From contig NZ_BMER01000001.1 in the NCBI RefSeq assembly GCF_014636865.1, forward strand, positions 124,001 to 188,000: 64,000 nucleotides of DNA. Direction: 5' to 3'. The stretch comes from Parapedobacter pyrenivorans (GTDB lineage: Bacteria > Bacteroidota > Bacteroidia > Sphingobacteriales > Sphingobacteriaceae). Made by a program: the position numbers and the translations under genes. Every line of letters starts with the position of its first letter. The first letter of the stretch is position 1. The notes beneath the pieces are model-generated. The model had not been told where the DNA came from. It did not search any database and was given only the letters and a program-made list of their open reading frames with translations. Below, piece after piece: positions 4,462 to 63,618 of the stretch.

Positions 4462-6012
4462 ATGAAGAATTTGCTTTTAATTACATTCGCTGCATCACTG
4501 ACCCTGTCGTGTACGGATAACTTTACGGAATTGAATACCGACCCTAGCAAGCTCACCGAAGCCGGGCCCCGGGAAATGCCTTTTATGTTTTCGCGGGCAC
4601 AATCCGCCGCAGCGATGGACCGGAGTTTCTACCAAACCGTACAGAACCTGGGGCCTGACCTCTATGCGCAGTACTTTGCACTTTCCGTAACGTCTTTCCA
4701 AACGGACCGATACGTGCTCACTGCCGACTGGCAACGTCGTTTTTGGACGGTTGTATATGCCAACACGGCCCCGCAACTCAAAGCCATCATGGAAAATTCA
4801 GCTTCTGCCTCTGGCGAACAGGCGCTTGCAAACATCTTGTGGGTGTACGCATTCCATCGGCTTACCGATCAATTTGGTCCTGTGCCTTACTTCCAAGCTG
4901 CAGACCCCGTAGAACAAATCCCCTATGATAGCCAAGAGGCCATTTACGATGACTTTTTCAAGCGACTGGACCAAGCCGTTACGGATCTCAAGGCACTTGG
5001 TTCGGACGCAACGATTTTTCAGGGTTTCGACCTGATGTATAATGGTGATGTAAACAGCTGGATCTTATTTGCCAACACGCTACGTTTACGATTGGCGTTA
5101 CGCATTGCAGGGATCAGCCCCGATAGAGCACAACAGGAAGCGGAAGCCGCAGTAGCCGCCGGTGTATTGACAGACAACGGTCAAAACGCGTCGTTGGCCA
5201 AATCGCTGAAAGGCAATGATACCCACGGCCTGGCCCAGACCGCAGCATGGAACGAATTTGCCATGAGCTCGACCATCGCTTCATACCTTAAAGGTTATAG
5301 CGACCCGCGCCTTGGCAAATATTTCCAGCGCGATGTGACCAACGGACAATTTAACAGCTTGCGCAACGGGCTCCCGCCTTCAGCGCTCAATAACCCCCGC
5401 AACAACAGCGCACAAAACTCCAATGTGGGCACCTATTGGGTCAATTGGTCTGCCGCTTCTGGAGCTTGGACACCCAACCTCGAAGCCAGGTTTCATGTGA
5501 TGAGCGCCGCTGAAGCGTGGTTCCTCCGGGCGGAGGGCGCCATCAATGGGTGGAACATGGGTGCGGCAGCCCGTGAATGCTACGAACAGGGGATTACCAC
5601 CAGCCTCGCACAATGGGGAGCAGACCAAGCGGCAATCAGTACCTATCTAACGTCTGCCGAGCTGCCTGCTTCACCCGGCGACACCGAAAATTCGCCAGCC
5701 GTGGCCACTACGCCAATTGAATGGGCATCCGATGAATCGACACAACGCGAACAAATTGGCGTACAAAAATGGCTGGCTTTATTTCCCGACGGGATGGAAG
5801 CCTGGGCGGAATTCCGCCGCACCGGATTCCCGAAAATGTATCCCGTGGTAGAATCGGGCAATGCAGATTTGCCATCGGGCACTTTTATCAACCGCTTGCC
5901 GTTTCCTATTGTAGAGGAGAACAATAATGCAGCGGAACTGGCTAAAGGGCGGGCACTCCTTGGCGGCCCCGACAACGCAGCGACACGCCTCTGGTGGGAC
6001 GTAAACGAGTAA
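4462..6012 (+). CDS. SusD/RagB-like surface glycan-binding lipoprotein
   Basis: The 516-residue lipoprotein has a signal peptide with lipobox TLSC (Cys17) followed by the SusD-type opening FTELNTDPSKLTEAGP. That opening and the later helical repeats resemble the SusD-like_2 group more than the classic RagB group. The C-terminal part contains the common signature in which a whole-row trait (REQIGVQKWLALFPDGMEAW) precedes the end of the fold. It sits 11 bp after its SusC partner and would form the hinged lid of the outer-membrane importer. Family is confident; ligand is not determinable. Confidence 0.93.
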   Translation: MKNLLLITFAASLTLSCTDNFTELNTDPSKLTEAGPREMPFMFSRAQSAAAMDRSFYQTVQNLGPDLYAQYFALSVTSFQTDRYVLTADWQRRFWTVVYANTAPQLKAIMENSASASGEQALANILWVYAFHRLTDQFGPVPYFQAADPVEQIPYDSQEAIYDDFFKRLDQAVTDLKALGSDATIFQGFDLMYNGDVNSWILFANTLRLRLALRIAGISPDRAQQEAEAAVAAGVLTDNGQNASLAKSLKGNDTHGLAQTAAWNEFAMSSTIASYLKGYSDPRLGKYFQRDVTNGQFNSLRNGLPPSALNNPRNNSAQNSNVGTYWVNWSAASGAWTPNLEARFHVMSAAEAWFLRAEGAINGWNMGAAARECYEQGITTSLAQWGADQAAISTYLTSAELPASPGDTENSPAVATTPIEWASDESTQREQIGVQKWLALFPDGMEAWAEFRRTGFPKMYPVVESGNADLPSGTFINRLPFPIVEENNNAAELAKGRALLGGPDNAATRLWWDVNE

Positions 6013-6022
6013 CTAAATAGAT

Positions 6023-8062
6023 ATGAAAAGATTAATATGGGTCATCCTAACGGGCCATCTGCCGTTTTCCGTGTGCGGGCAGGAATCTTTATTGCCGCGT
6101 GTACATGAGGTGGAGCCCATAGACTACCCGGCCATGCAACTCAGGTTAGGTGCCGCTAAAGTTGCACAACGGCAACAGCTGCCCCAAACCGCTGCAGATT
6201 GGAAAACCCTTGCCAAGCGGTTGAAAGCTCGGATTGCACACGATTTGGCACTACCTTATCAACACAATTTGTCATTGGATATGCGCGAAACAGGGATGGT
6301 GCAAGGCGAGGGCTTTACCATCCGTAACATCAGTTTCCAAACCCAGCCCGACGTACTGGCTACAGCCAACCTATACGTGCCGGACGGCAAAGGCCCTTTC
6401 CCGGCCGTAGTCATCACCCACGGCCACTGGCCCGATGGGCGCCGGGCCCCTCTTTTCCAAGCAGTAGCGCAAACACTGGTACGCAATGGGTATGTATGTC
6501 TCAACATCGATGCCTGGGGGGCCGGCGAACGAGGCACATTGCCTGGCCAACAGGAATACCACGGTGCCAACCTCGGCGCATCGCTGATGAATGTGGGGCA
6601 CACCCTCATGGGCTTACAGCTTGCCGATAATATGCGAGCTGTTGATTTATTGGCTTCATTACCCTATGTAGACAGCACGCGAATCGGTGCCACGGGAGCC
6701 AGTGGTGGCGGCAACCAAGCGATGTGGCTCGCCGCCATGGATGAACGCATAAAAGCAGCTATGCCGGTAGTGAGCGTCGGCACCTTTCAATCGTATATCA
6801 TGAATAGCAATTGCGTATGCGAACTGCTGCCCAGCGGACTTACCTACACTGAAGAGGCGGGTGTGTTAGCATTAGTGGCTCCACGTGCCCTGAAAATCAT
6901 CAATGCCGTGGAGGAGCGGAACCCCAGCTTCATGCCCCAGCAAATGCTTATTTCTTTCCAACAGGCCAAGACGATGTACCACATACTCGGTGCCACGGAC
7001 CACATCGCCTATCACATTGCCGCCGGAGGCCATGATTACAGCACCGAAATGCGCGAACACCTCCTTGGTTGGTTCGATATGCACCTGAAAGGTGACGGAA
7101 ACGGTACTCCGAGGGAAACGCCCCCCATATCACTCGTCGAGTCATCGCTCCTCGCCACGTATCCCAAGGGCAACCGTGATGGCGCGGTCGTGACTACCGA
7201 AAGGTATTGCCAATTGGAAGGCAACCGGCTCAAAACTGAACAAGCGAACGCCCAGTTACCCTCACTGACCGTATTGCGAGACTCGCTGCAGCAGTTATTG
7301 CAGCTCCAACCGCTCACGGCTGTGCAGGTAAACAATTATTCCCCGAAAGACGGATGGATACGGATGTCGGTGGAAACCAATGCAGGGAGCATTATCCCGA
7401 TTTTATATAGCCCCCCGGCCCAGGGGGGCCGTTATGCACTGCTACTACATAGCAGCGGCAAAGACAGCATCCCCAATACGCGTATCCAGCAACTCCTCAA
7501 CCAGGGCTATGGCGTGATATTGGCCGACCTGTGGGGCACAGGCGAACAAGCTTCGGCAGAGGCTCTGCGGATAGACGGTGCGCAGCCGCCATTTCATACA
7601 CTGGCCCGCTCGGCGCTATGGCTCGGGAGACCAATTATGGGAATATGGGCTGCGGAAATACAACTACTCCTGCAACTCTGTACCGACCGGCTGGAGGCCA
7701 AAGGTATCCACATGGAAGCTTATCGAGATGCCGCATTGGCCACCGCCTACGCTTTAGCGCTTTCAGAAGCCCCCAACGTTGAATTCCGGGCGGTAGATTT
7801 TCCATACAGCTACCTTTTCGACAGCCGTGTAGGCATCGAACATTATTCGATGGCCGTACACGTACCACGCATCCTGCAATGGGGAGATGTATCGCAACTA
7901 CTGGCCATGAGTCGGGCCCAATTAGCACTCGATGGCGTCCGGACGCTATCTGGCAGGCCATTGAGCCATCATGAGCAGTTGGTTTACCAACAGGAAATTG
8001 AAAACATCGCGAGACAGGCCGGTCTATCGACGACGGTACGTTTCATTGAGACAACGCCATAA
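6023..8062 (+). CDS. Two-domain alpha/beta hydrolase, acetyl-xylan-esterase-like
   Basis: The 679-residue secreted protein has a signal peptide (to about residue 20) and two alpha/beta-hydrolase modules. The first (about 60-360) has the nucleophile elbow GATGASGGG with Ser227, and a GGHDYS histidine at residue 337. Together they fit the Axe7/dienelactone-type esterase fold. The second (about 420-670) keeps core strands such as YALLLHSSGKDS and GVILADLWGTGE, but I see no G-x-S-x-G elbow, so it looks catalytically dead. It starts 10 bp after susD and overlaps nothing. A role in removing O- or N-acyl groups from the imported glycan is inferred. Substrate is unknown. Confidence 0.82.
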   Translation: MKRLIWVILTGHLPFSVCGQESLLPRVHEVEPIDYPAMQLRLGAAKVAQRQQLPQTAADWKTLAKRLKARIAHDLALPYQHNLSLDMRETGMVQGEGFTIRNISFQTQPDVLATANLYVPDGKGPFPAVVITHGHWPDGRRAPLFQAVAQTLVRNGYVCLNIDAWGAGERGTLPGQQEYHGANLGASLMNVGHTLMGLQLADNMRAVDLLASLPYVDSTRIGATGASGGGNQAMWLAAMDERIKAAMPVVSVGTFQSYIMNSNCVCELLPSGLTYTEEAGVLALVAPRALKIINAVEERNPSFMPQQMLISFQQAKTMYHILGATDHIAYHIAAGGHDYSTEMREHLLGWFDMHLKGDGNGTPRETPPISLVESSLLATYPKGNRDGAVVTTERYCQLEGNRLKTEQANAQLPSLTVLRDSLQQLLQLQPLTAVQVNNYSPKDGWIRMSVETNAGSIIPILYSPPAQGGRYALLLHSSGKDSIPNTRIQQLLNQGYGVILADLWGTGEQASAEALRIDGAQPPFHTLARSALWLGRPIMGIWAAEIQLLLQLCTDRLEAKGIHMEAYRDAALATAYALALSEAPNVEFRAVDFPYSYLFDSRVGIEHYSMAVHVPRILQWGDVSQLLAMSRAQLALDGVRTLSGRPLSHHEQLVYQQEIENIARQAGLSTTVRFIETTP

Positions 8063-53141: not shown

Positions 53142-54230
53142 ATGGTACGTGACTTTAACTGGTTTGGATGGTACACGCCAAAGGTGCGTGTCATTTGCCA
53201 TGTCATGTTTTGGTTCTTCCTGACGCTCCTTTATTACTTGAATTATGTCAGGCTGGCTGGCTCCCATTCCTGGCTATATGTGTTTAAAGACCTATTTGCT
53301 ACCTCTACCCTGTTCTATTTCACCACCTCCTTCGTGGTCAACCATTGGTTACTCAAACGGAAATACATCCCCACCTTACTTTGGATCATCTTCACCTATC
53401 TATGGTGGCTGACGCTGACGTATGTTGCCTGTTGGATTGACGTCAACTTTTTACCGGAAGCCCCTGAATATTGGCAAAGGTACCTTGCGCTTGTGCTTGA
53501 CGGCGGGTTGCTTTCGCTCCTAAGCCCCGGAAGCCTACCCATTTTTATTTTGGACTACATATACGTTATCTCTTTTCCGCTTTGGCCCAGGCTGATGAAA
53601 AGAATGATCGAACAATCCTACCTGACAACCAAACTAGAACGGGATAAACTTGCCATGGAACTGAATTTCCTGAAAACACAGATATCCCCGCACTTCCTGT
53701 TCAATACGTTGACCAATATCTATCAAATGGTGCGATTAGGTGAGCCCCATGCACCCACCGCAATTATGCAGCTTGCCGATATGATGCGCTATATCCTCTA
53801 TAAATCAAAACAGAGCACGATACCATTGAATCAGGAAACTAAATTCATCCAAGACTACATCCAGCTCGTGAGGATACGATACAAAACAGATTTCCCGCTC
53901 CACTGCAACATCAAAGAGCCCGATGAACCCTACCAGATACTGCCACTGCTTTTAATCCCGTATGTTGAAAATGCTTTTAAACACGGTCCGGACAGGAGTC
54001 TTCGGAATGCCTGGGTATCCATTGCCTTAACGATTGAAAACGATGTCTTGGTATTCATCGTAGAAAATGGCGTGAACAAGCTCTCCCCAGAACCTGAAAA
54101 GGGCGGTGCTGGACTTGAAAATGTCCGAAGAAGGCTTGAGTTGCACTATCCAGAAACACATAAACTCAATATCCAAGATAACAGTGACAGTTTCCACGTA
54201 TCACTGACATTGAATTTAAAATCCCTATGA
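53142..54230 (+). CDS. LytS/YehU-type sensor histidine kinase
   Basis: The 362-residue protein has about four N-terminal membrane segments (residues 15-160), then a His_kinase domain (PF06580-type) with TQISPHFLFNTLTNI, where His184 is the phosphorylation site. A degenerate ATPase domain with LIPYVENAFKHG and GAGLENVRRRLELHY follows. It ends in an ATGA overlap with the LytTR gene, so the two form one signalling pair. The stimulus is unknown. The pair converges on the lanthipeptide-type locus, which does not prove a link. Confidence 0.92.
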   Translation: MVRDFNWFGWYTPKVRVICHVMFWFFLTLLYYLNYVRLAGSHSWLYVFKDLFATSTLFYFTTSFVVNHWLLKRKYIPTLLWIIFTYLWWLTLTYVACWIDVNFLPEAPEYWQRYLALVLDGGLLSLLSPGSLPIFILDYIYVISFPLWPRLMKRMIEQSYLTTKLERDKLAMELNFLKTQISPHFLFNTLTNIYQMVRLGEPHAPTAIMQLADMMRYILYKSKQSTIPLNQETKFIQDYIQLVRIRYKTDFPLHCNIKEPDEPYQILPLLLIPYVENAFKHGPDRSLRNAWVSIALTIENDVLVFIVENGVNKLSPEPEKGGAGLENVRRRLELHYPETHKLNIQDNSDSFHVSLTLNLKSL

Positions 54231-54925
54231 ACATAACCTGCATAGCACTTGAAGATGAATTTTACGCCAAGGTTCATTTGGAAGCTTGTATCGTAAAAAC
54301 ACCTTTCCTTGAATTAAAAGGCAGCTTCGAAAACGCCCTAAGCGCTTGGGAATATTTAAAAAATGAAAACATTGACCTGGTGATATCGGATATTGCCATG
54401 CCCGATATTACCGGGGTGGCATTCTTGAAAAACCTCAGCAATCCGCCTTTATTCATATTTGTGACCGCTAATACGGAGTTTGCTGCAGAAAGCTATGAGC
54501 TTAATGTCGTGGACTACGTCGTTAAACCCTACGACTATGCCCGGTTCCTAAAAGCGGCCACCAAGGCCCAAAACCGCCTGAACAATGGTCAATCACATCC
54601 AACCATCATGGATTTTGTATCTGTAAGGGATGGCTATAAAAACATCATCATCCGATTCAGCGAAATCTTTTTCGTCGAAGGGAGCAAAGAATACGTCACT
54701 GTTTACACGGCGGAAAAAAATATCCTATTCAGAAAATCACTCATCCAAATGGAACAAATCCTTCCATCGGAAAAGTTCCTCAGGGTACAAAAATCCTATA
54801 TTGTCAATTTAGATTTCGTCCGGGAGGTTACAACGAGTAAAATCATTATGAAAGGAGGACTTCAGAACATACCCGTCGGACCGCAATACCGCCCTGAATT
54901 ATTCAGGCGTTTTGGATTGGAGTGA
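54227..54925 (+). CDS. LytTR-family response regulator
   Basis: The 232-residue protein has a receiver domain (1-120) with phospho-acceptor Asp55 in LVISDIAMPDI and Lys in VDYVVKPYDY. The C-terminal LytTR DNA-binding domain (about 130-230) contains FVSVRDGYKNI, FFVEGSKEYVTVYT and FLRVQKSYIVNL. It is coupled to the kinase by a 4-bp overlap. Its stop is 28 bp from the stop of the convergent dehydratase gene. Confidence 0.93.
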   Translation: MNITCIALEDEFYAKVHLEACIVKTPFLELKGSFENALSAWEYLKNENIDLVISDIAMPDITGVAFLKNLSNPPLFIFVTANTEFAAESYELNVVDYVVKPYDYARFLKAATKAQNRLNNGQSHPTIMDFVSVRDGYKNIIIRFSEIFFVEGSKEYVTVYTAEKNILFRKSLIQMEQILPSEKFLRVQKSYIVNLDFVREVTTSKIIMKGGLQNIPVGPQYRPELFRRFGLE

Positions 54926-54953: not shown

Positions 54954-57900
54954 TTAGACCGTGCACTCCACTTCAGCCCGACAAATTTGAGCGTGGTAAA
55001 ACTTTCCGAGGAAATGGTAGATTACCATTTCATTCTCTCGTTGATTAACAAAGAAGACCTTATTCAGGTACATATGGCAAAGGCTGGCTAGGATGGAGCC
55101 CGTCTTCCCCCCGCGCCACTTGCCAAGGTCTGAAAATACATTTTCCAGTGCGGCAACTCGCTCTATCCTATAATTGTTTATCGTACCGCTGGTTTTACGA
55201 TGGTCAAGCAGGTTTACTTCAAGAATTGACCTAAATTTTCTATACCGGTTATCGATTTTCGCTTTAATTTTCCGGTCAACCTTAAATTCGTGCGCAAAAG
55301 CATCACGCCAATTGTCTACCATTGTGAGTTTCTCCGAAGTGGTTGCACCGAATGCATCGAGCATGTCATCAATTCCAGCAGCTGCACAAATCCATCGGGT
55401 CTGTTCGCCTCCCGGCCGGAGAAATAAGGGAAGCATTTGCAATACATGGTTACTATCAATCCCGAAGATTTCCTCGCAGCTTTCCATTGTACGTTCACCA
55501 TACCGTTCAATTTCCCGCTCATACGTATCGAAGGTCAACCGGTGCACGATCCCCGATGCGATCAAAGGAGAAAAAGATTCACTTATTGCTAACATCAGAC
55601 CGGCATAATCCAGGGCTGGTATGGCTCCCTTAGTAAGGAATCGCAAACGGATATGTGCCTCTGGATCACGATAACGAATAAAGTGCCATTTCGCTATCAG
55701 ACCCCTACCCTTGAAACCTTTAATAATATGCGGTAGATGTTCCATCAAAATACGATCAGCATCACGTTCCCCGCAGTATATTTTTGTGTACAGCCATTCG
55801 CTACCCGGCGGAAACGAACGAATCAAATCCCCCTTTATATCCATATTTCCGGATGGGGGGCAATCCCGGATTACCGAATCCGTATAAAATGGCAGAATAA
55901 CCTCGTTTGCATAAGCACGATTCTCCATATCTGAAACCGGACTGCCATTTTCATGCAAGCATTCAAGAAGTTTGGCGTTCCCCTTTTTCAGCCGCTCCAG
56001 CAATATCTGCTGTGCAAAGGGATTTGTTAGATCAAGGACAAGTTCATTGTCCGCATCAGCCAAAACAACCATTCCAGGCAATCCGAATCTTGCGCGCAGT
56101 CCCGCTACCATCGTGCTCTCGCCAACCTTTGCCAAATCATCAACAGAACCCTTTGGGATGTTCCATTCCGCGCGGGAAAGTATCAGGTGCTTGTAAATAA
56201 CCCTGGGCAGAAAAGGCAACCCGTCCAATGCTCCCCATTCCCAAGAAATATCAAGTGAATTGGACTGGAACTGTAGATCACAAAGAAATTGGTAAGCGGT
56301 AACACCATAACGGAAGTTATGGGCACAACTGAGCCTTGGTATCACATATTTATCAAGTGAACCGGAACGAAGCCATACCATTCCGTCTTTCACGGAAACA
56401 TACAGGTCAGTCAAAGGAATCTGTGATTGATCCGGAACCGTGCAATTAGCAAGTAAGGGGATTTCATACCGTCTTAGCTGTGGCCGCTGCATAATGTTTC
56501 CGATACGATCTTCCGGTAGGTGCACAATTTCAGCCATCACGGCATTTTTACTTTTCGCTTCTTCCCAAGAAGCGATTTCCCGTAGTCTGCATTCCAAAGC
56601 CGGATCAAGGTGTGAAAACCTCGCCATCAATGGCAATGCGGATGGGCCGCCACATGCCATTACGTTAAAGCGGAACTTACCGGAATCAAGTTCATGTCCA
56701 TTTGGGGCCAAAATCTCGCCAAGCACGAATCCGGTAAGGGGGAGATCCCGATTGGCTGGCTTTAGTGGCGCTCTTGCAATCAAATCTGTAATAGCAATTT
56801 CCGGCACATCGGGTGAAAACCCACCCAATTCCCGATATCGGGCGTAGATTGACCGGCTCAAATGGGAATGCAAATCGGTATTATTATTGTTCCTCGAAAG
56901 CCCCAGTCCCTTAATCAATGGGTTGCAATCCAGATACTGTCCGTCCTTATCTCCATAGCCGATACCTCTATCCTGATCGAGTACCTCCATCAAAGGCATT
57001 TCGCGCTCCCCGTAACGCGCCAAAAATCGCCGACAGAAGTCTTGGATTTGTTTTGGAACAATGGGTTCGTTGAGTGGAAGTAATTCGGCAACCTCGCGCA
57101 AAATGGTATCACGGGCCCGTTTTCCCAATACATTGTGGGTTGAACCGATGCGCAAGTCAACCTGCACTATATCTTTTCCGCTCCACCCATTTTCCAATGG
57201 TCCCAACGCTGATTTTAGGGCGCTTGCGGGGATAAGCCCGGCCATTGCTTGCTTAGCATATCCCTTTAAGTGCCTCAGGTGTGCAACCATATCGTTTTCA
57301 GGGCACAATCCGCCCAATCTCTTCAATAGATAATTGTAATGGTTTTCACCCGTTACAGATGCTTCTAATTCAGAAACCAACAATTGTTCCTTTACTAGCA
57401 GATCCAGGTATTCCGAGGCTGCAGCCGCCGGAACTCCCATTTCCGATACGTGGGCCACGAGCTCATTAAACCGGATGGGTGCTTTGGCAATTTCCAGTAC
57501 AGATTGCAGAATCGGGTTTTTTGTAACCTTCGTCCACTGGTAGGACCTCCTGCCTGCCCCTTCCTTCCGTTCTATGAACCTGTATTGCTCCCCTTGTTCA
57601 AATAGACTGTTATTCACGGTGTATTCCAACGAATGCCTAATGGAACTTTGTGACATCGCGGTTTTGGCGATGTGGCCCGAAAAGCCCATATCGAATCGCA
57701 CGTGGGGTGATTGTTGGCCCGAAAGCTCAATTCGCGAGTATTCAGAAAACTCCCCCAATGAAATTCCGGAGAACTTACCAAATGGTGTTGACCTGGCAGA
57801 CATCCGCAAGACATACTTAAACAAAGACAATCGAACTTTCGGAGACAACGGGTATAACGGCGATTTCAGCCACTCCACGAGCTGCCTGCCCAATTCTTCG

Positions 57901-58067
57901 CTTGCTATGCAAATAGCATCTACCAATTCCGGATCGGAGAACAGCTTGAGAAAATAAGCATCAAGCAATTCCTGATGGAAACATTGATTAAGTTCCCCCA
58001 AGGTTGCCAAAGGCAACCTCGGGGTCCTTAATAGGTAGATGTCCATACCTTCAATTCCGGGAGTCAT
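54954..58067 (-). CDS. Class I lanthipeptide dehydratase, LanB (full length)
   Basis: The 1037-residue protein combines both LanB halves. The N-terminal glutamylation domain (about 10-680) shows LLRTPRLPL, FKYVLRMSARSTPFGKFSGIS and RFDMGFSGHIA. The C-terminal SpaB-type elimination domain (about 750-1030) shows WLYTKIYCGERDADRIL, KWHFIRYRDPEAHIRLRFL and the final YHFLGKFYH. LanB enzymes glutamylate Ser/Thr with glutamyl-tRNA and eliminate to dehydroalanine and dehydrobutyrine. ATG 58046 (eight residues in) is an alternative start that avoids the 17-bp overlap with the receiver gene. It follows a peptide gene and a receiver gene on the same strand. No LanC homologue is adjacent. Confidence 0.94.
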   Translation of the reverse strand: MTPGIEGMDIYLLRTPRLPLATLGELNQCFHQELLDAYFLKLFSDPELVDAICIASEELGRQLVEWLKSPLYPLSPKVRLSLFKYVLRMSARSTPFGKFSGISLGEFSEYSRIELSGQQSPHVRFDMGFSGHIAKTAMSQSSIRHSLEYTVNNSLFEQGEQYRFIERKEGAGRRSYQWTKVTKNPILQSVLEIAKAPIRFNELVAHVSEMGVPAAAASEYLDLLVKEQLLVSELEASVTGENHYNYLLKRLGGLCPENDMVAHLRHLKGYAKQAMAGLIPASALKSALGPLENGWSGKDIVQVDLRIGSTHNVLGKRARDTILREVAELLPLNEPIVPKQIQDFCRRFLARYGEREMPLMEVLDQDRGIGYGDKDGQYLDCNPLIKGLGLSRNNNNTDLHSHLSRSIYARYRELGGFSPDVPEIAITDLIARAPLKPANRDLPLTGFVLGEILAPNGHELDSGKFRFNVMACGGPSALPLMARFSHLDPALECRLREIASWEEAKSKNAVMAEIVHLPEDRIGNIMQRPQLRRYEIPLLANCTVPDQSQIPLTDLYVSVKDGMVWLRSGSLDKYVIPRLSCAHNFRYGVTAYQFLCDLQFQSNSLDISWEWGALDGLPFLPRVIYKHLILSRAEWNIPKGSVDDLAKVGESTMVAGLRARFGLPGMVVLADADNELVLDLTNPFAQQILLERLKKGNAKLLECLHENGSPVSDMENRAYANEVILPFYTDSVIRDCPPSGNMDIKGDLIRSFPPGSEWLYTKIYCGERDADRILMEHLPHIIKGFKGRGLIAKWHFIRYRDPEAHIRLRFLTKGAIPALDYAGLMLAISESFSPLIASGIVHRLTFDTYEREIERYGERTMESCEEIFGIDSNHVLQMLPLFLRPGGEQTRWICAAAGIDDMLDAFGATTSEKLTMVDNWRDAFAHEFKVDRKIKAKIDNRYRKFRSILEVNLLDHRKTSGTINNYRIERVAALENVFSDLGKWRGGKTGSILASLCHMYLNKVFFVNQRENEMVIYHFLGKFYHAQICRAEVECTV

Positions 58068-58494
58068 GCTGCTGTCCCAAACGTTCCCTAATCACATCAT
58101 CGAGACACCTATTAAACCTTTCAAATGAAACAGGCTTGCAGAGTTCCCGTGGATTGGTTAACAAGTCCCTTTTTTGGTAATGGCTTAGCGGAATAGCAGA
58201 AACAACAACGATGCTGGATTCTTGTGGAAGCATCCCGAAGTGAAAATCTCCACAATTACCTAGTGGGATAATCAGATCAAGAAAAATAATATCCGGCTTT
58301 AAGGACTGGACCACTTTAGCAAGCTGTTCCATTTCCGTTACCACACCCAAAAGTTTGAGGTCTTTCCTAGACGCGACAAGATCCTTAATCATTTCGATCG
58401 AAAAAGGTTCGTTCTCCACAATGAGGCATCCAAAAACCCTGTAATGGATTGATCCATTTGGAATTCCTAAACGCCGTTGCTTGTCCAGTATCAT
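58051..58494 (-). CDS. Receiver-domain-only protein in the lanB operon
   Basis: The 147-residue protein is a stand-alone CheY-like receiver with no output domain. Its phospho-acceptor is Asp73 in PDIIFLDLIIP, with the Ser99 switch (VVVSAIP) and Lys120 (LCKPVS). The acidic pocket reads IVENEP, so one acid may be replaced by Asn. It lies 28 bp after the peptide gene and overlaps lanB by 17 bp. A regulatory or scaffold role in the modification operon is inferred; nothing shows a DNA-binding ability. Confidence 0.83.
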   Translation of the reverse strand: MILDKQRRLGIPNGSIHYRVFGCLIVENEPFSIEMIKDLVASRKDLKLLGVVTEMEQLAKVVQSLKPDIIFLDLIIPLGNCGDFHFGMLPQESSIVVVSAIPLSHYQKRDLLTNPRELCKPVSFERFNRCLDDVIRERLGQQHDSRN

Positions 58495-58522
58495 TGCTAT
58501 TTCAGTGTTCGGATAGCGTTTC

Positions 58523-58699
58523 TTATTTTAAAGCCATTTTAGTGGTTGTGGTGGTGGTGCTGATGGTCATGCCGCTGATGGTATCCCCATCACCCCAAAA
58601 ACCATCACCTTCCCGTAGGGCGCGGTGGTCGGCGCTGCAAAGTGTTTCTTTTTCAAGTTTCAGAAACTTGTCGAGCAGTTCATTACTGAATCTTTTCAT
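58523..58699 (-). CDS. Candidate RiPP precursor peptide with Thr-rich, Cys-free core (58 residues)
   Basis: This frame runs from ATG 58699 to TAA 58525-58523. The leader-like half reads MKRFSNELLDKFLKLEKETL, and its FLKLEKETL resembles the L-x-L-x-K-E-T-I leader motif of Bacteroidota class I lanthipeptides. The rest is Gly/Asp-rich (residues 31-39) and then Ser/Thr-rich: Thr40, Ser42, Thr45, Ser47 and six Thr at 48-53, ending KMALK. The only Cys is residue 21, inside the leader. Thr codons vary (ACC, ACA, ACT), so this is not a simple DNA repeat. Position directly upstream of the receiver and lanB genes makes it the natural LanB substrate. Maturation is unproven. Confidence 0.78.
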   Translation of the reverse strand: MKRFSNELLDKFLKLEKETLCSADHRALREGDGFWGDGDTISGMTISTTTTTTKMALK

Positions 58700-58749: not shown

Positions 58750-58782
58750 TGAAAATACATTTGGCAAAACTTTGCAACCAAA
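58750..58782 (-). promoter_or_regulatory. Weak candidate promoter of the peptide-lanB operon
   Basis: On the minus strand TTTG (58782-58779), 21 bp, then TATTTTCA (58757-58750), a partial TAnnTTTG. The segment 58760-58782 has TTTGG...CCAAA ends, an imperfect palindrome. The remaining part of 58700-58935 shows nothing else clear. Confidence 0.25.
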
Positions 58783-58935
58783 CGAAGGACTAAGCCTACC
58801 AAACAAGGAATAGCGTCAACAATCGAGGGGGCAAGCAAAACCCCTTCAACGTCATTCTTTTCATGCCAATAAGAACTCGGGGCGAGAATCTACCCCAGAA
58901 AGGGAAATGAACTTTATAATAAATTAAGGCCGTAT

Positions 58936-60021
58936 CTATTCAGTATCACAGCCATCCGGTCGTTTGCTCAGTTCATATACGCCATTCAATTGGTTTCCAG
59001 CCAATAGGAGTAGCGACTGATTATAAACAACCAGTGAAGAGGCATGGGTCTTAGGACCATTGGCTTTTTTCGCTAAAGCCAGCCATTTCCCATCTCCTCC
59101 CATATAACAAACATCATTCTTATTATAAGCATCTGTTATTGATCCGGAAATCACCGAATTGCCTCCGATAAGCCAAAGCTTGTCATCGAATATGATTGTA
59201 TTGGGATATTGCACGCCGTCAATGGGAATGGGTTGCGCCTTACTCCAATTGATTCCATCTTCGGTACTGTATACCTCCCGGCTATAGTCGAAATCAGACA
59301 GCTCTCCATCTCCATACCAACCTCCCGACACCTGATAAATACGATCGTTAAAAACGCTCATCGTCCCAACAAGATTCTTGCCCATATGTTTGAGGGAGTC
59401 GGCAAGGCACCGCCAGGTAACCCCCTTATCTTCGGACACGTAAATATCTGTTTTTCCCGACTTGAAATCAGGCAGACCTTGTCCGCCGCCAACGAAGAAA
59501 CGCCCCTTGTACTCGACGCCTGCCATCAGCATCCTATTGCCGAAAGGGGATTTATCAGAAATCAATTGCCAATTCATCAGATCTTTCGACCTCCAGACTT
59601 CCGCCCGTTCAGCTTCACTGTTATATTGATCTCCACCGATGACATAGACATATCCATCGTCCGAATCTATACATACAAACGTATGCCGGGGTGCGAACGC
59701 AGCTTTCGAAAACAATGTCCAATTCCTTCCACCATCCCCACTCTTCCATATTTCATTGGTTGTAGCATGAAATGGCGGTGCAAAAGCCCTCGGATTCCAG
59801 CCCCCGATAAGAAATAACTCATCGCCGCGTGCAATCGCAGCGATCCCATCCCGCCATTGCGGAAAAATGCTATCCGACAACAATGTCCATTGAAATTCCT
59901 CACAAGGCCGCTGCGAAATCTCAACCTTTTCATTAAACCGCTTATCGACGAAAGATCGCTCGGATAATCCCAGAAAAAACGGAAGGAAACCGATAAGTAC
60001 TATCAATAAATTTATACTCAT
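58936..60021 (-). CDS. Secreted Kelch/BNR-type beta-propeller protein
   Basis: The 361-residue protein has an N-terminal signal peptide (to about residue 19). It has five or six propeller-like repeats, seen as ELFLIGGWN, YVYVIGGDQYN, RFFVGGGQGL, RIYQVSGGWYG and KLWLIGGNS, each about 50-60 residues apart. Interspersed Asp-box-like stretches (SGDGGRNWTLF, SEDKGVTWRCL, STEDGINWSK) recall sialidase folds. It overlaps the upstream glycosidase-like gene by 4 bp (ATGA). Binding or hydrolysis of a sugar is possible; no catalytic residues can be assigned. Confidence 0.8.
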   Translation of the reverse strand: MSINLLIVLIGFLPFFLGLSERSFVDKRFNEKVEISQRPCEEFQWTLLSDSIFPQWRDGIAAIARGDELFLIGGWNPRAFAPPFHATTNEIWKSGDGGRNWTLFSKAAFAPRHTFVCIDSDDGYVYVIGGDQYNSEAERAEVWRSKDLMNWQLISDKSPFGNRMLMAGVEYKGRFFVGGGQGLPDFKSGKTDIYVSEDKGVTWRCLADSLKHMGKNLVGTMSVFNDRIYQVSGGWYGDGELSDFDYSREVYSTEDGINWSKAQPIPIDGVQYPNTIIFDDKLWLIGGNSVISGSITDAYNKNDVCYMGGDGKWLALAKKANGPKTHASSLVVYNQSLLLLAGNQLNGVYELSKRPDGCDTE

Positions 60022-62861
60022 TTATAAAAAGCCGTTAGCTGGAGAGTTCCCCTCTTGCCGGTAAGATCGATGGTTTCTTGATCTGCATCAAAGGCGCGGT
60101 GTACCTTACCATTGAGTTCGACCTTTTCAATTCGTCGTTTGCCGGGTGTACGCAGGCGAATAAAAACTCGTTCCGCTACATCGACCTGACTGGGCATGGT
60201 TACCGCGACATTGATTTTCCCATTATCGATATCCGAGGTGATCAAATAATCCAGTTCTCCAAATAGTGTAGGTGCCTTTTCAACCTTAATATGCTTCCCT
60301 TGGGCTAACCAACCGCGCGGCGTTGAATGAGCCAAGTGAAGTTCCACTGGGGCTCCCATTTCTCCTTCTGTTTCGTAAACCAACATCAAGCGCAGCATCA
60401 GCAAAAACCAACTGTTGTTGAAACTTGAGGGGCTTAGATAAGACGTTCTATAATACTCTCCAGGATACGGCCCCACGGTATCCCCTTCTCCCGAAATAAA
60501 TGTATTTCGCGTCATACCGTGCGCCAACTTCGCATACAAAGAGAGCACCAATCGGTCTGGATCATCCATCATGGCTATCACACGACTGATATTCAGCCCG
60601 TATACATTATCCACACCAGTTGTCTTATAGCCGGGCAACCCATCCTTCCGATAATCGCCTATGGCTACCGGGTAATAGTTGAAACGGACCATGCCTAAAA
60701 AAAACGCGCCACAGTTCTTCAAATATTGATAGTATCCCGAGACCAGCTCACGATCTAAAAAACCCGATGCGGCTACATAAGGGAAACATAAATTCCAATA
60801 AGAACCGTATTTGGACGCCGTAATCATCGCATATGGCGCTGGCTTCGCTTTTGTAAACAGTTCCGTCGGCAAAAAAATACTACCATCGGATAATAACGTC
60901 TTACTTTCATTTACCGCACGGAGCAATCGGTTTCGGAGGCTATCCGCCAATGTCACGAAACGGCTGCCAACAGCCGATTGGCTAAGTGATAGCAGGATAG
61001 CGGCCATATCCCGCATACCGCGCCACGCAACCGCCTGATGATGGAGATAAACCAATTTTTCAGGGATGTCCCCGGAAAACGCTTCGGCACTCAATACCCC
61101 ATTTGCAGAAGCCTCCATTTGTGCCTGAAAATCTTCCATAAAACCGATAAATTTCTGCTCATGGCGCCGGATAAATGCGGTATCTTTCGACAGGTGATAG
61201 TATTGAGCGGAATGCGATAACAATTCACCCATTTCCCAGGTTCGGTACCTGCGAAAAGGCACGGAAAGCAATACCTCATGCATGGCCTTCTGACGCTCCA
61301 AGAAACCATATTCCCCCAGTATACGGGCAGCATCATTACCTTCGGGCTGGTACCAGGTTTGATAGGAATTACCAATGCTATAGAGGTAGCCCATAAACAG
61401 GTTCTGGATCAGCAGTCCTTTTTGCGCATTATTCACCCGCTCTTCGGGCACTTCGAATACCGCGCCTTTTGCCAGTTCACCGTCCCAAAACCCCTTCAGT
61501 TCTGCTTTCTCCACGTTATAGTAGCTGGCAGTTGGGTCAAAAGGCACACACTGGGCCGGATTTAGCAGCCTGGCCAGGTAAATCTCCTGATCACCGTGAC
61601 GCAAATCTACGTCATAGACGACTGTATTTCCGCCAGTCAGTTTTCCGCCTTCGGTCAGCATTGCCCGTACCTCGTTACCGACCTTCAACACGTTTCCATT
61701 AAGCGTAAGATCTCTATCTGAGAAATGCAGTCGTACCTTTACGGCATTTACCTCCGCGTTTCTTTTTTGTATAGTCAATTTGACGAAACTAACCAGTTCT
61801 GTTGTAGCGAATGTGTAGTCAGAAAAGGATTCCTGGACATACGTCACTCCCGAATAATCTGTGTAATTATTGACCAATATCGGTTGATAACCATCTTCCA
61901 GGCTTTCCTGGGCAAGCCGGGCCTCGGCAAAGCCAAACCGTTCGCGTCCTTCTGTCCCGACAAAGAAGGTAACTTTTGATCCGGTCGCAACCTGTGAAAT
62001 GACCTGGCTACCATCACCAACGTGCAGGGCAACCGGACCAAAACCGGCATTATTCAAAGGCCGGCCGAACGGCAGATAATATACGCCCGACTCCGTAACG
62101 GCCGTGCCGATGAGTTTCAAAGGAGTAAGGTAACCAGCTATATTTTCGTATGTAGGCCCCTCAGGCAATCGCAATACTTCTTCCCCCAATAAGTCTGTGC
62201 GTGAGTTCAGTGCATCATTTACGGAATTTTCATAGGCCTTAGGCGTCTTCTTCCGTTCGTCCAACATTTCATTGGCCGGCGGATCGCCTTCCCATCGGTC
62301 GAAGACTAATTCATGTGCTAAGTCATAGGCAAGCGGACCATACGTATTATAACCTTCTATTTGGTCTAGATTTTCTGCCGCCTTGGCTAATGATCCGGCA
62401 ACAGTGGCCGGCTCGCCTTTAAATAACTTGAGGTAGTAAACTTGCCCCTTCTCCAAATAAACATCCGTTGCAAACTCAATTTGATGCTTACCCGGTGATT
62501 TTCCCCCCAACGATCCCGTAGCAACCACTGTTCCGTATGGCGATTCACTGGATATCTGGGCTGCAATAAGTCCACTACTTTCTTCGTGTACCCATACATA
62601 TGCCGCTTTCAGCCTAGAGCACCGGGCCTCGAAGCTCGTGATGGCAATGTCATTGTCTCCGTAGATATCCGCAAACTTAGTGGCAGGTGTCGCTGGGGGA
62701 TGCGAAATGACCATGCTGTCGCCCTCGCAAATCGGAGTTTGATGACGGGGGGGCAAATGTGTTCCTCCTGATGCCCACGTTTCGGATACGCAAGCAAACA
62801 GCAACAGTAGATACAATGAACCTATTGTCACTTTTCCTGCAGGGTAAAAGCAGCTGTACAT
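60018..62861 (-). CDS. Secreted glycosidase-like protein of unknown family
   Basis: From ATG 62861 the protein is 947 residues with a signal peptide (TIGSLYLLLLFACVSETWA). Beta-rich segments fill roughly residues 60-480. A helical region of the (alpha/alpha)6 type follows (about 500-830), with SFRRYRTWEMGELL, LHHQAVAWRGMRDMAAILL, ITASKYGSYWNLCFPY and GEYYRTSYLSPSSFNNSWF, typical of six-hairpin glycosidases. A beta module closes the protein. I cannot name the CAZy family or catalytic acids. It is coupled to the propeller gene downstream and lies 16 bp after a DUF1080 gene. Starts farther upstream would overlap that gene. Confidence 0.7.
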   Translation of the reverse strand: MYSCFYPAGKVTIGSLYLLLLFACVSETWASGGTHLPPRHQTPICEGDSMVISHPPATPATKFADIYGDNDIAITSFEARCSRLKAAYVWVHEESSGLIAAQISSESPYGTVVATGSLGGKSPGKHQIEFATDVYLEKGQVYYLKLFKGEPATVAGSLAKAAENLDQIEGYNTYGPLAYDLAHELVFDRWEGDPPANEMLDERKKTPKAYENSVNDALNSRTDLLGEEVLRLPEGPTYENIAGYLTPLKLIGTAVTESGVYYLPFGRPLNNAGFGPVALHVGDGSQVISQVATGSKVTFFVGTEGRERFGFAEARLAQESLEDGYQPILVNNYTDYSGVTYVQESFSDYTFATTELVSFVKLTIQKRNAEVNAVKVRLHFSDRDLTLNGNVLKVGNEVRAMLTEGGKLTGGNTVVYDVDLRHGDQEIYLARLLNPAQCVPFDPTASYYNVEKAELKGFWDGELAKGAVFEVPEERVNNAQKGLLIQNLFMGYLYSIGNSYQTWYQPEGNDAARILGEYGFLERQKAMHEVLLSVPFRRYRTWEMGELLSHSAQYYHLSKDTAFIRRHEQKFIGFMEDFQAQMEASANGVLSAEAFSGDIPEKLVYLHHQAVAWRGMRDMAAILLSLSQSAVGSRFVTLADSLRNRLLRAVNESKTLLSDGSIFLPTELFTKAKPAPYAMITASKYGSYWNLCFPYVAASGFLDRELVSGYYQYLKNCGAFFLGMVRFNYYPVAIGDYRKDGLPGYKTTGVDNVYGLNISRVIAMMDDPDRLVLSLYAKLAHGMTRNTFISGEGDTVGPYPGEYYRTSYLSPSSFNNSWFLLMLRLMLVYETEGEMGAPVELHLAHSTPRGWLAQGKHIKVEKAPTLFGELDYLITSDIDNGKINVAVTMPSQVDVAERVFIRLRTPGKRRIEKVELNGKVHRAFDADQETIDLTGKRGTLQLTAFYK

Positions 62862-62877
62862 CAACGGTATGATCGAA

Positions 62878-63618
62878 TTACAACTCCCTGATACGTATAT
62901 TCCTAAACCATGCGCGGTCGCCATGGTCTTGCAACGCAATCCTGCCGTTGTTCGTTATTTTATAATCTGGGTAGTCCTTCCATTTACCTTCATTCTTTTC
63001 TTTATTCCAATCAGGGGTTCCCTCTGAAAAAGCAACGATTAACGCTCCATTGAGCCAGTGTTCCACATTTCCATCCTTATATACGATCTTGCTCGTGTTC
63101 CACTCACCTACTGGATTCAGCTTCTTCTTCGAATTATCTGCAGGGTTCATCGCATAGTTTGCACCCGCCTCCTGCCACTTTTCTAATTTTGCCCCAAAGC
63201 CGATGTCATCGATCAGTTGATATTCAGGACCAGTTTCATAAGGCGCATTGTATTTGCTATCTTCTACAACGTGGTACATCAGCCCTGAATTCCCTTGTTC
63301 CGAAATTTTCCATTCCCATTCCAACTCAAAATTCCCAAACTCCTCGTCAGTTACAATATCACCACCGATATCGCCACCGCCTGTTTTGCCTAAGCAAGTG
63401 AGCACGCCTTGCTCTACCACCCAATTGTCTACCGTGCCGGGTTTATTAAACCCATGCCACCCGTTTAGCGAAGTCCCATCAAATAAGGAAATCCATTCTC
63501 CCGTCGACTCAGCACCAACATCATTCACGTGTTGGTCGGCGGTTCGGTTACCCGAACCGCAAGCGATCATAAAAACACCCATTAAACCTGCTGCCATAAA
63601 ATACATCATTCTGTCCAT
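62878..63618 (-). CDS. DUF1080 (3-keto-disaccharide hydrolase-type) lipoprotein
   Basis: From ATG 63618 the product is 246 residues with lipobox IACGS (Cys20). The DUF1080 domain shows FDGTSLNGWHGF, NFELEWEWKISEQGNSGLMYHV, GPEYQLIDD, VGEWNTSKIVYKDGNVEHWLNG and ending DHGDRAWFRNIRIREL. Members have a concanavalin-like sandwich, and some hydrolyse 3-keto-glycosides formed by Gfo/Idh-type oxidoreductases. Other ATG codons lie upstream and downstream in the signal region. It is adjacent to a kinase-like gene and a glycosidase-like gene. Confidence 0.88.
   Translation of the reverse strand: MDRMMYFMAAGLMGVFMIACGSGNRTADQHVNDVGAESTGEWISLFDGTSLNGWHGFNKPGTVDNWVVEQGVLTCLGKTGGGDIGGDIVTDEEFGNFELEWEWKISEQGNSGLMYHVVEDSKYNAPYETGPEYQLIDDIGFGAKLEKWQEAGANYAMNPADNSKKKLNPVGEWNTSKIVYKDGNVEHWLNGALIVAFSEGTPDWNKEKNEGKWKDYPDYKITNNGRIALQDHGDRAWFRNIRIREL

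Follow-up and report, generated by a model that had tools for sequence, protein, structure and literature searches.

The window analysed here is a 64,000-nucleotide stretch of the Parapedobacter pyrenivorans genome (contig NZ_BMER01000001.1, positions 124,001 to 188,000), within which three minus-strand genes encode a short Thr-rich peptide, a protein made up of a lone response-regulator receiver domain, and a full-length dehydratase of the LanB type (Table 1). The peptide and receiver genes are separated by 28 bp and the receiver and lanB genes overlap by 17 nt, giving one apparent operon. The initial annotation of this DNA had described these three genes, and the open reading frames (ORFs) confirm their positions, the short gap and the overlap. 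It had overlooked, however, a convergent pair of genes coding for a membrane histidine kinase and a LytTR-type response regulator, as well as two operator-like repeats ahead of the peptide gene. The kinase and LytTR genes overlap by 4 nt, occupy 53142-54925 between lanB and a prfA gene named by eye, and end 28 bp from the lanB stop codon. This lanB match is the only one in the genome (5.9 Mb, 99.99% complete). We consider a self-contained peptide-dehydration cassette under two-component control to be the best overall explanation of the locus, with a probability of about 0.55.

Table 1. Genes and predicted operator boxes of the cassette, in window coordinates.
Feature	Position	Strand	Basis and remarks
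Precursor-like peptide, 58 aa	58523..58699	-	FLKLE box in leader, then Thr-rich tail TISGMTISTTTTTTKMALK without Cys; one Cys ahead of tail
Receiver-only protein (stand-alone response regulator), 147 aa, no output domain	58051..58494	-	PF00072, 22.8 bits; Asp and Lys in 23/23
LanB-type dehydratase, full-length, 1037 aa, glutamylation and elimination domains	54954..58067	-	PF04738 over residues 44-688, E 2.3e-132; PF14028 over residues 757-1023, E 2.9e-61
LytTR-type response regulator, receiver and LytTR DNA-binding domain, convergent with lanB	54227..54925	+	PF00072 and PF04397
Membrane histidine kinase	53142..54230	+	PF06580
Box 1, LytTR-like operator (predicted), TTTGGTAGGC	58794..58803	-	Two-box fit of upstream regions
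Box 2, LytTR-like operator (predicted), TTTGGTTGCA	58773..58782	-	21 bp after box 1; 73 bp before peptide ATG

LanB matches of some kind occur in 149 of 301 genomes of the family. The loci compared here (L numbers, with G numbers for genomes) comprise 40 regions around the stronger of these matches, a locus of S. mizutaii (L001) and four more; weaker matches are only partly included, so that locus counts are not prevalence figures. Receiver, LanB, LytTR regulator and kinase are found together in 24 of the 25 full-context loci of the LanB clade (the window, L001, L033, L034, L036-L047, L050, L052, L053, L055, L056, L062, L102 and L104). The 25th, L054, has peptide, LanB, LytTR and kinase genes, its peptide gene abutting lanB, and no receiver detectable by BLAST; L035, L051 and L105 are interrupted by contig ends. 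In all 25 full-context loci the kinase gene stands beside the LytTR gene and the latter lies on the convergent side of lanB, being its immediate neighbour in 21; one gene intervenes in L039, L041 and L042, and kinase genes do so in L050. Among other ORFs of at least 90 aa, the commonest cluster is present in 7 of the 24 core loci. The receiver-bearing loci and L054 lie on one side of a branch, with support of 90/91, in a tree of 39 LanBs. Pairwise distances of LanB, receiver, LytTR and kinase are correlated at 0.867-0.925 over 22 loci, with none of 2000 permutations as high for any pair of proteins, and the gene set has, for the most part, travelled together. One genome (G207) holds three copies of the cassette with differing peptides (L102, L038 and L050).

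The 58-aa peptide matches nothing in Pfam or NCBIfam. Relatives with the same leader and tail precede the receiver gene (once lanB itself) in 21 other full-context loci and head the operon in three more. The earlier proposal of a precursor-like peptide linked to the dehydratase is supported, and peptide and lanB are conserved together among the relatives. None of the three outcomes that would have spoken against that proposal was observed: a LanC gene in the same transcript just beyond the window, a LanB short of catalytic residues, or a peptide not conserved alongside lanB. Judging from its conserved position before the receiver gene or lanB and from the pattern of substitution among its relatives, the peptide appears to be a real gene: differences between close pairs fall mostly in third codon positions, with dN mostly well below dS (a few pairs differ too little to be informative, and the window peptide has no close relative for this comparison). 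We collected 27 distinct peptides, 24 of the window type and three of the type found in L039, the latter chosen partly by tail. Their last 17 residues contain on average 6.4 Ser or Thr (minimum 4), against 1.9 expected from the remainder of the same peptides. None of the 27 has Cys in its C-terminal half, so lanthionine is not their shared product; one or two Cys occur further towards the N-terminus in 18 of them. The leader box F-L-x-I/L-E resembles, by eye, the FNLD box of class I leaders, which is reported to be bound by NisB (PMC7296275).

A profile built from 18 of these peptides, including that of the window, finds a single copy in this genome. An unanchored search with it of the 301 family genomes yields 28 places, 24 of them at E <1e-6 and four weak (E 7e-4 to 5e-3). 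Seventeen of the 24 strong places are members of the profile, which makes the result partly circular, three had turned up in the LanB search before and four had not; three of these new ones adjoin receiver and lanB genes and the fourth lies at a contig end. At the 23 places that can be judged, lanB is alongside in every case and the receiver gene in 22. The profile failed to pick up a relative already known from G288 (L056) and did not recognise the L039-type peptides. Among 395 genomes of the phylum, part of them from the same family, it returned only the window itself and a weak, partial match (E 0.005).

The description of the LanB as full-length is borne out by its two domain matches, which take in almost all of either family, the elimination domain being covered from end to end (PF14028 positions 1-255 of 255), and the protein also matches TIGR03891 of NCBIfam. 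The motifs R-TP, RY-D---H-R-R, E--RY and HM are retained in the alignment of the window protein and its relatives, as are the surroundings of NisB Y80, R83, R87 and H961, residues reported to be important (PMC4341554). All rows that cover the position of NisB H961 have a His there; the correspondence to R14 is positional only, since the NisB alignment begins at query residue 76. With these motifs kept, the window LanB is probably active and a catalytically dead enzyme seems unlikely. The solved structure closest to it in sequence is PDB 9g04 (E 1.5e-53). In L104 (G255, 4713-7824) the cassette LanB is split over two overlapping frames, through either a frameshift or an assembly error.

The window receiver scores below the Pfam cut-off of 30.2 bits for PF00072, but it shares the phospho-acceptor Asp and the Lys with all other aligned sequences. 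The lone receivers have the hallmarks of stand-alone receivers (a receiver domain only, with acidic pair, Asp, Ser/Thr and Lys), Glu-Asn replacing the acidic pair in the window protein and in L036. Twenty-two lone receivers fall into a single group (SH-aLRT 95), and the receivers of the cassette LytTR proteins into another (81), in a tree that was built quickly and has long branches.

Both partners of a histidine kinase-LytTR system, a sensor kinase and a receiver-bearing LytTR regulator, are present beside lanB. A crude hydropathy plot gives the kinase three hydrophobic N-terminal segments and no long loop. The operator-like repeats emerge from a fit of two copies of one 10-bp box, at fixed spacings of 12 to 30, to 18 representative upstream regions. 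The score is 156.2 at spacing 21, against 53.1-96.5 at the other 18 spacings and 53.0 +/- 4.2 (maximum 62.8) in 60 dinucleotide shuffles at spacing 21. At wrong spacings, too, real sequences mostly outscore the shuffles, showing that relatedness and a shared single box inflate the score, and the comparison between spacings is therefore the fairer control. The pair ends 57-81 bp ahead of the ATG in 24 of 26 upstream regions, the exceptions being L050 and L054, the latter with an uncertain start codon. LytTR sites are described as 9-bp direct repeats with mostly 12-bp spacers (PMC6193735), which amounts to 21 bp from start to start and matches the spacing of the boxes; we predict that the boxes are tandem repeats of the LytTR-operator type.

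Upstream of the kinase gene, the scores in 22 cassette loci are at most 6.5, save for 11.2 in L036, with a matrix trained on the peptide regions. A stringent box pattern has two exact matches in the whole genome, one of them at the peptide operon, and the reversed control also has two. The matrix itself was rejected as a genome-wide regulon finder for its low specificity. The sequence TANNTTTG, which we take to be the Bacteroidota -7 element, does not occur exactly in the 220 bp ahead of the peptide start in any of the 26 upstream regions, which might fit an activator-dependent promoter.

The absence of LanC from the locus, already remarked in the initial annotation, extends to the whole genome, which contains no match to PF05147; for LanC, the accompanying suggestion that missing partners could lie elsewhere is thereby overturned, and a lanthipeptide locus with its LanC at a distance is ruled out here. 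The same search covered 29 genomes, 18 of which hold a LanC-less cassette (G255, with L104, is not among them). Ten of these 18 have no LanC match at all. The other eight do have one: G180 has a weak match (24 bits) about 13 kb from lanB, and in the rest the match is on another contig or hundreds of kb away. As lanthipeptides by definition contain lanthionine, a locus with neither LanC nor Cys in the tail of its peptide should not be filed as a lanthipeptide locus. Its sequence is better read as that of a system for uncyclised dehydration than as the class I lanthipeptide locus with parts missing that had been proposed.

The absence of a transporter from the locus was likewise correctly noted: an ATP-binding cassette (ABC) transporter cluster is found in 4 of the 24 core loci, and the window has none. 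The one C39-peptidase ABC transporter of the genome is on another contig (L106:6078-8159, contig C3 of G000), and no double-glycine precursor was seen among the ORFs around it. Its context is apparently not that of a ribosomally synthesized and post-translationally modified peptide (RiPP); it could be an unlinked exporter.

The cluster of L039 combines a Thr-tail peptide at its head with double-glycine precursors, an outer-membrane receptor, LanC and a C39 ABC transporter. The larger genes of L041 and L042 follow the order seen in L039, and both loci likewise have a Thr-tail peptide; in the midpoint-rooted LanB tree these three loci branch first, the remaining, LanC-less cassette loci being grouped at 99/99. 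Thr-tailed peptides with Cys-free tails thus head class I clusters that have double-glycine precursors, at L039:16522-16674 (also in L041 and L042) and, outside the cassette group, at L069:15645-15800. Box pairs lie upstream of such peptides in L039 (23.5), L042 (20.8) and, with a modest score of 12.3, L069. Right after the Thr-tailed peptide comes a second small protein containing a double glycine (L039:16319-16498, L069:15424-15642), unlike the Cys-bearing precursors that are next in line.

Computation establishes the gene set, its conservation, the catalytic motifs, the absence of LanC and the operator-like repeats; for the dehydration chemistry and the binding of LytTR, what is known of the protein families suggests how the cassette might operate. 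LanB would bind the peptide through its leader box, glutamylate Ser and Thr of the tail using Glu-tRNA and eliminate glutamate, leaving dehydrobutyrine and dehydroalanine uncyclised. The convergent kinase would activate the LytTR regulator, which would bind the two direct repeats 21 bp apart and thereby switch on the peptide, receiver and lanB genes. The lone receiver, made from the same operon, would be phosphorylated by the same kinase, providing a second phosphate input, and would then damp the response or gate LanB; the dehydrated peptide would in turn signal back to the circuit. That LytTR controls the peptide operon and that LanB acts on the peptide both seem highly probable to us. We infer with less assurance that phosphate from the kinase reaches the lone receiver, which is somewhat probable, and the signal role of the product is put forward tentatively, at a little under even chances. 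As a whole, the locus resembles a control circuit built on a modified peptide more than it does a typical antibiotic locus. In a more specific and rather doubtful version, the product would be a linear dehydrobutyrine-bearing autoinducer sensed by the kinase, with LytTR amplifying the response via the tandem boxes and the lone receiver serving as a phosphate-dependent negative loop on the kinase or LanB.

Several observations weigh against this picture of a dehydration cassette run by a two-component circuit. Many of the loci are closely related, so their numbers do not count independent events, and LanC is adjacent to the receiver gene in three of the genomes (G181, G088 and G238, with L039, L041 and L042 respectively). 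L050 has no good box pair (5.6), and the box matrix is unspecific, giving eight pairs of at least 15 in the 64-kb window, that of the operon included, two of which exceed the operon's 17.4. Contact between receiver and LanB is a guess, and an AlphaFold model of the receiver from two sequences (mean pLDDT 42) was too poor and was left unused. Neither an exporter nor a leader peptidase belongs to the conserved set, so that an extracellular signal would need unlinked parts. Once LanB relatedness is taken into account, the peptide tail and the kinase sensor show no co-variation (partial r 0.03 over 19 loci), the corresponding values for the same loci being 0.28 for leader and sensor and 0.24 for leader and kinase part, and the sensor part is not hypervariable (mean identity 37% against 46% for the kinase part). 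Co-evolution of tail and sensor was accordingly dropped as support for signalling.

That last result would suit a dehydrated peptide acting as an effector, antimicrobial or self-acting, with the kinase and LytTR merely switching on its synthesis in answer to another cue and no signal returning to the kinase. Such a role would also be in keeping with the complete class I clusters, with LanC and C39 ABC transporter, that the Thr-rich peptides of L039, L041 and L042 head, and two-component control is common in RiPP clusters. An effector would, however, call for export or immunity, and no further conserved neighbour of at least 90 aa could fill either part (any cluster reaches at most 7 of the 24 core loci; immunity families as such were not searched); the regulatory genes alone are constant beside the cassette. 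We regard an effector role as possible, at odds clearly short of even.

The other two alternatives concern the enzyme and the integrity of the cluster. PEARLs (peptide aminoacyl-tRNA ligases) are LanB-like enzymes without an elimination domain. Amino-acid-ligating enzymes of this sort have been described (PMC11962472), and a window LanB working in the same manner would add glutamate or another amino acid without elimination, yielding a glutamylated peptide or serving to report charged tRNA. In the window protein, unlike in PEARLs, this domain is present at full length, and the His matching NisB H961 is found in every row that covers it, which renders such an activity improbable. Loss of LanC and export from a class I lanthipeptide cluster in decay might be read from the early branching of the LanC- and transporter-bearing L039, L041 and L042 (under midpoint rooting) and from the two-frame LanB of L104. 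Against this, the whole set is kept in 24 loci with protein distances that run together, close pairs of peptides mostly show a dN well below dS, the LanB motifs are kept and LanC is wholly absent from 10 of the 18 cassette genomes searched. Decay or a pseudogene is largely refuted by the conservation of the set, and we think it very improbable.

The proposed dehydration cassette shares with class I lanthipeptide loci of the nisin type a two-domain full-length LanB, a leader-plus-core peptide, the FNLD-like box and a nearby two-component system. It differs from them in that the genome has no LanC, the C-terminal half of the peptide no Cys and the set no LanT; it also has an extra lone receiver, and a LytTR protein in place of an OmpR-type regulator such as NisR. 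Closer in host, the Bacteroidota class I clusters of L048 and L069, which we take to be pinensin-like, belong to the same family and have LanBs of the same superfamily, but they have double-glycine precursors bearing Cys, LanC nearby and LanBs outside the cassette group. The nearest solved relative of the window LanB is the dehydratase MadB, as structure 9G04 appears in the MadB paper (PMC12241602); the lantibiotic system of MadB, unlike the cassette, is reported to have a LanC-type cyclase, MadC (PMC9889658). The Agr-linked CA_C0082 of Clostridium acetobutylicum is, like our lanB, a lanthipeptide-synthetase-like gene tied to peptide signalling with other lanthipeptide genes absent (PMC10301443), but it is described as a LanM-like downstream effector without the conserved catalytic residues, whereas the cassette LanB keeps its motifs. 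The HdrRM and BrsRM systems resemble the cassette in their autoregulatory LytTR operons and in their 9-bp direct repeats with mostly 12-bp spacers (PMC6193735); in those accounts LytTR is paired with an inhibitory membrane protein, in contrast to the kinase, the receivers with phospho-acceptors and the LanB found here. One survey of Bacteroidales reports LanB to be absent from that order (PMC10352776). Among the best-ranked papers on LanB together with Bacteroidetes, Sphingobacteriaceae, response regulators or LytTR, in a collection that lacks most subscription papers, none describes such a cassette in its title or the opening of its abstract.

Other features of these regions deserve mention. 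A rule that every LanB cluster linked to a kinase/LytTR pair has a Thr-tail peptide was rejected, as only L069 has one among six more distant loci in a scan within 1.5 kb of the pair, a range that also skips the known L039 and L042 peptides. In a looser scan, a 40-aa ORF with a Thr-rich stretch was seen between the LytTR and kinase genes of one of the more distant LanB loci (L060:15271-15393, minus strand). Elsewhere in the window, a 973-residue ORF with a TTG start (60018-62939, minus strand), flanked by a gene for a kelch-like protein and a PF06439 gene, has no match at E up to 0.1 in Pfam and up to 1 in NCBIfam.

In its predicted chemistry, the cassette works like the first half of a class I pathway, run under a LytTR circuit. 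Should a LanB with no other partner than a phosphorelay modify a peptide that lacks core Cys, the dehydratases of lanthipeptide pathways would have a job beyond lanthipeptides. Genome mining that starts from LanC, the bait of a published lanthipeptide survey (PMC7268733), would overlook loci of this kind. If our reading is true, about 5.7 kb would hold a candidate peptide circuit whose promoter, regulator, enzyme and substrate can all be tested; if the signal role is true as well, Gram-negative Bacteroidota would have a form of peptide signalling built on uncyclised dehydroamino acids.

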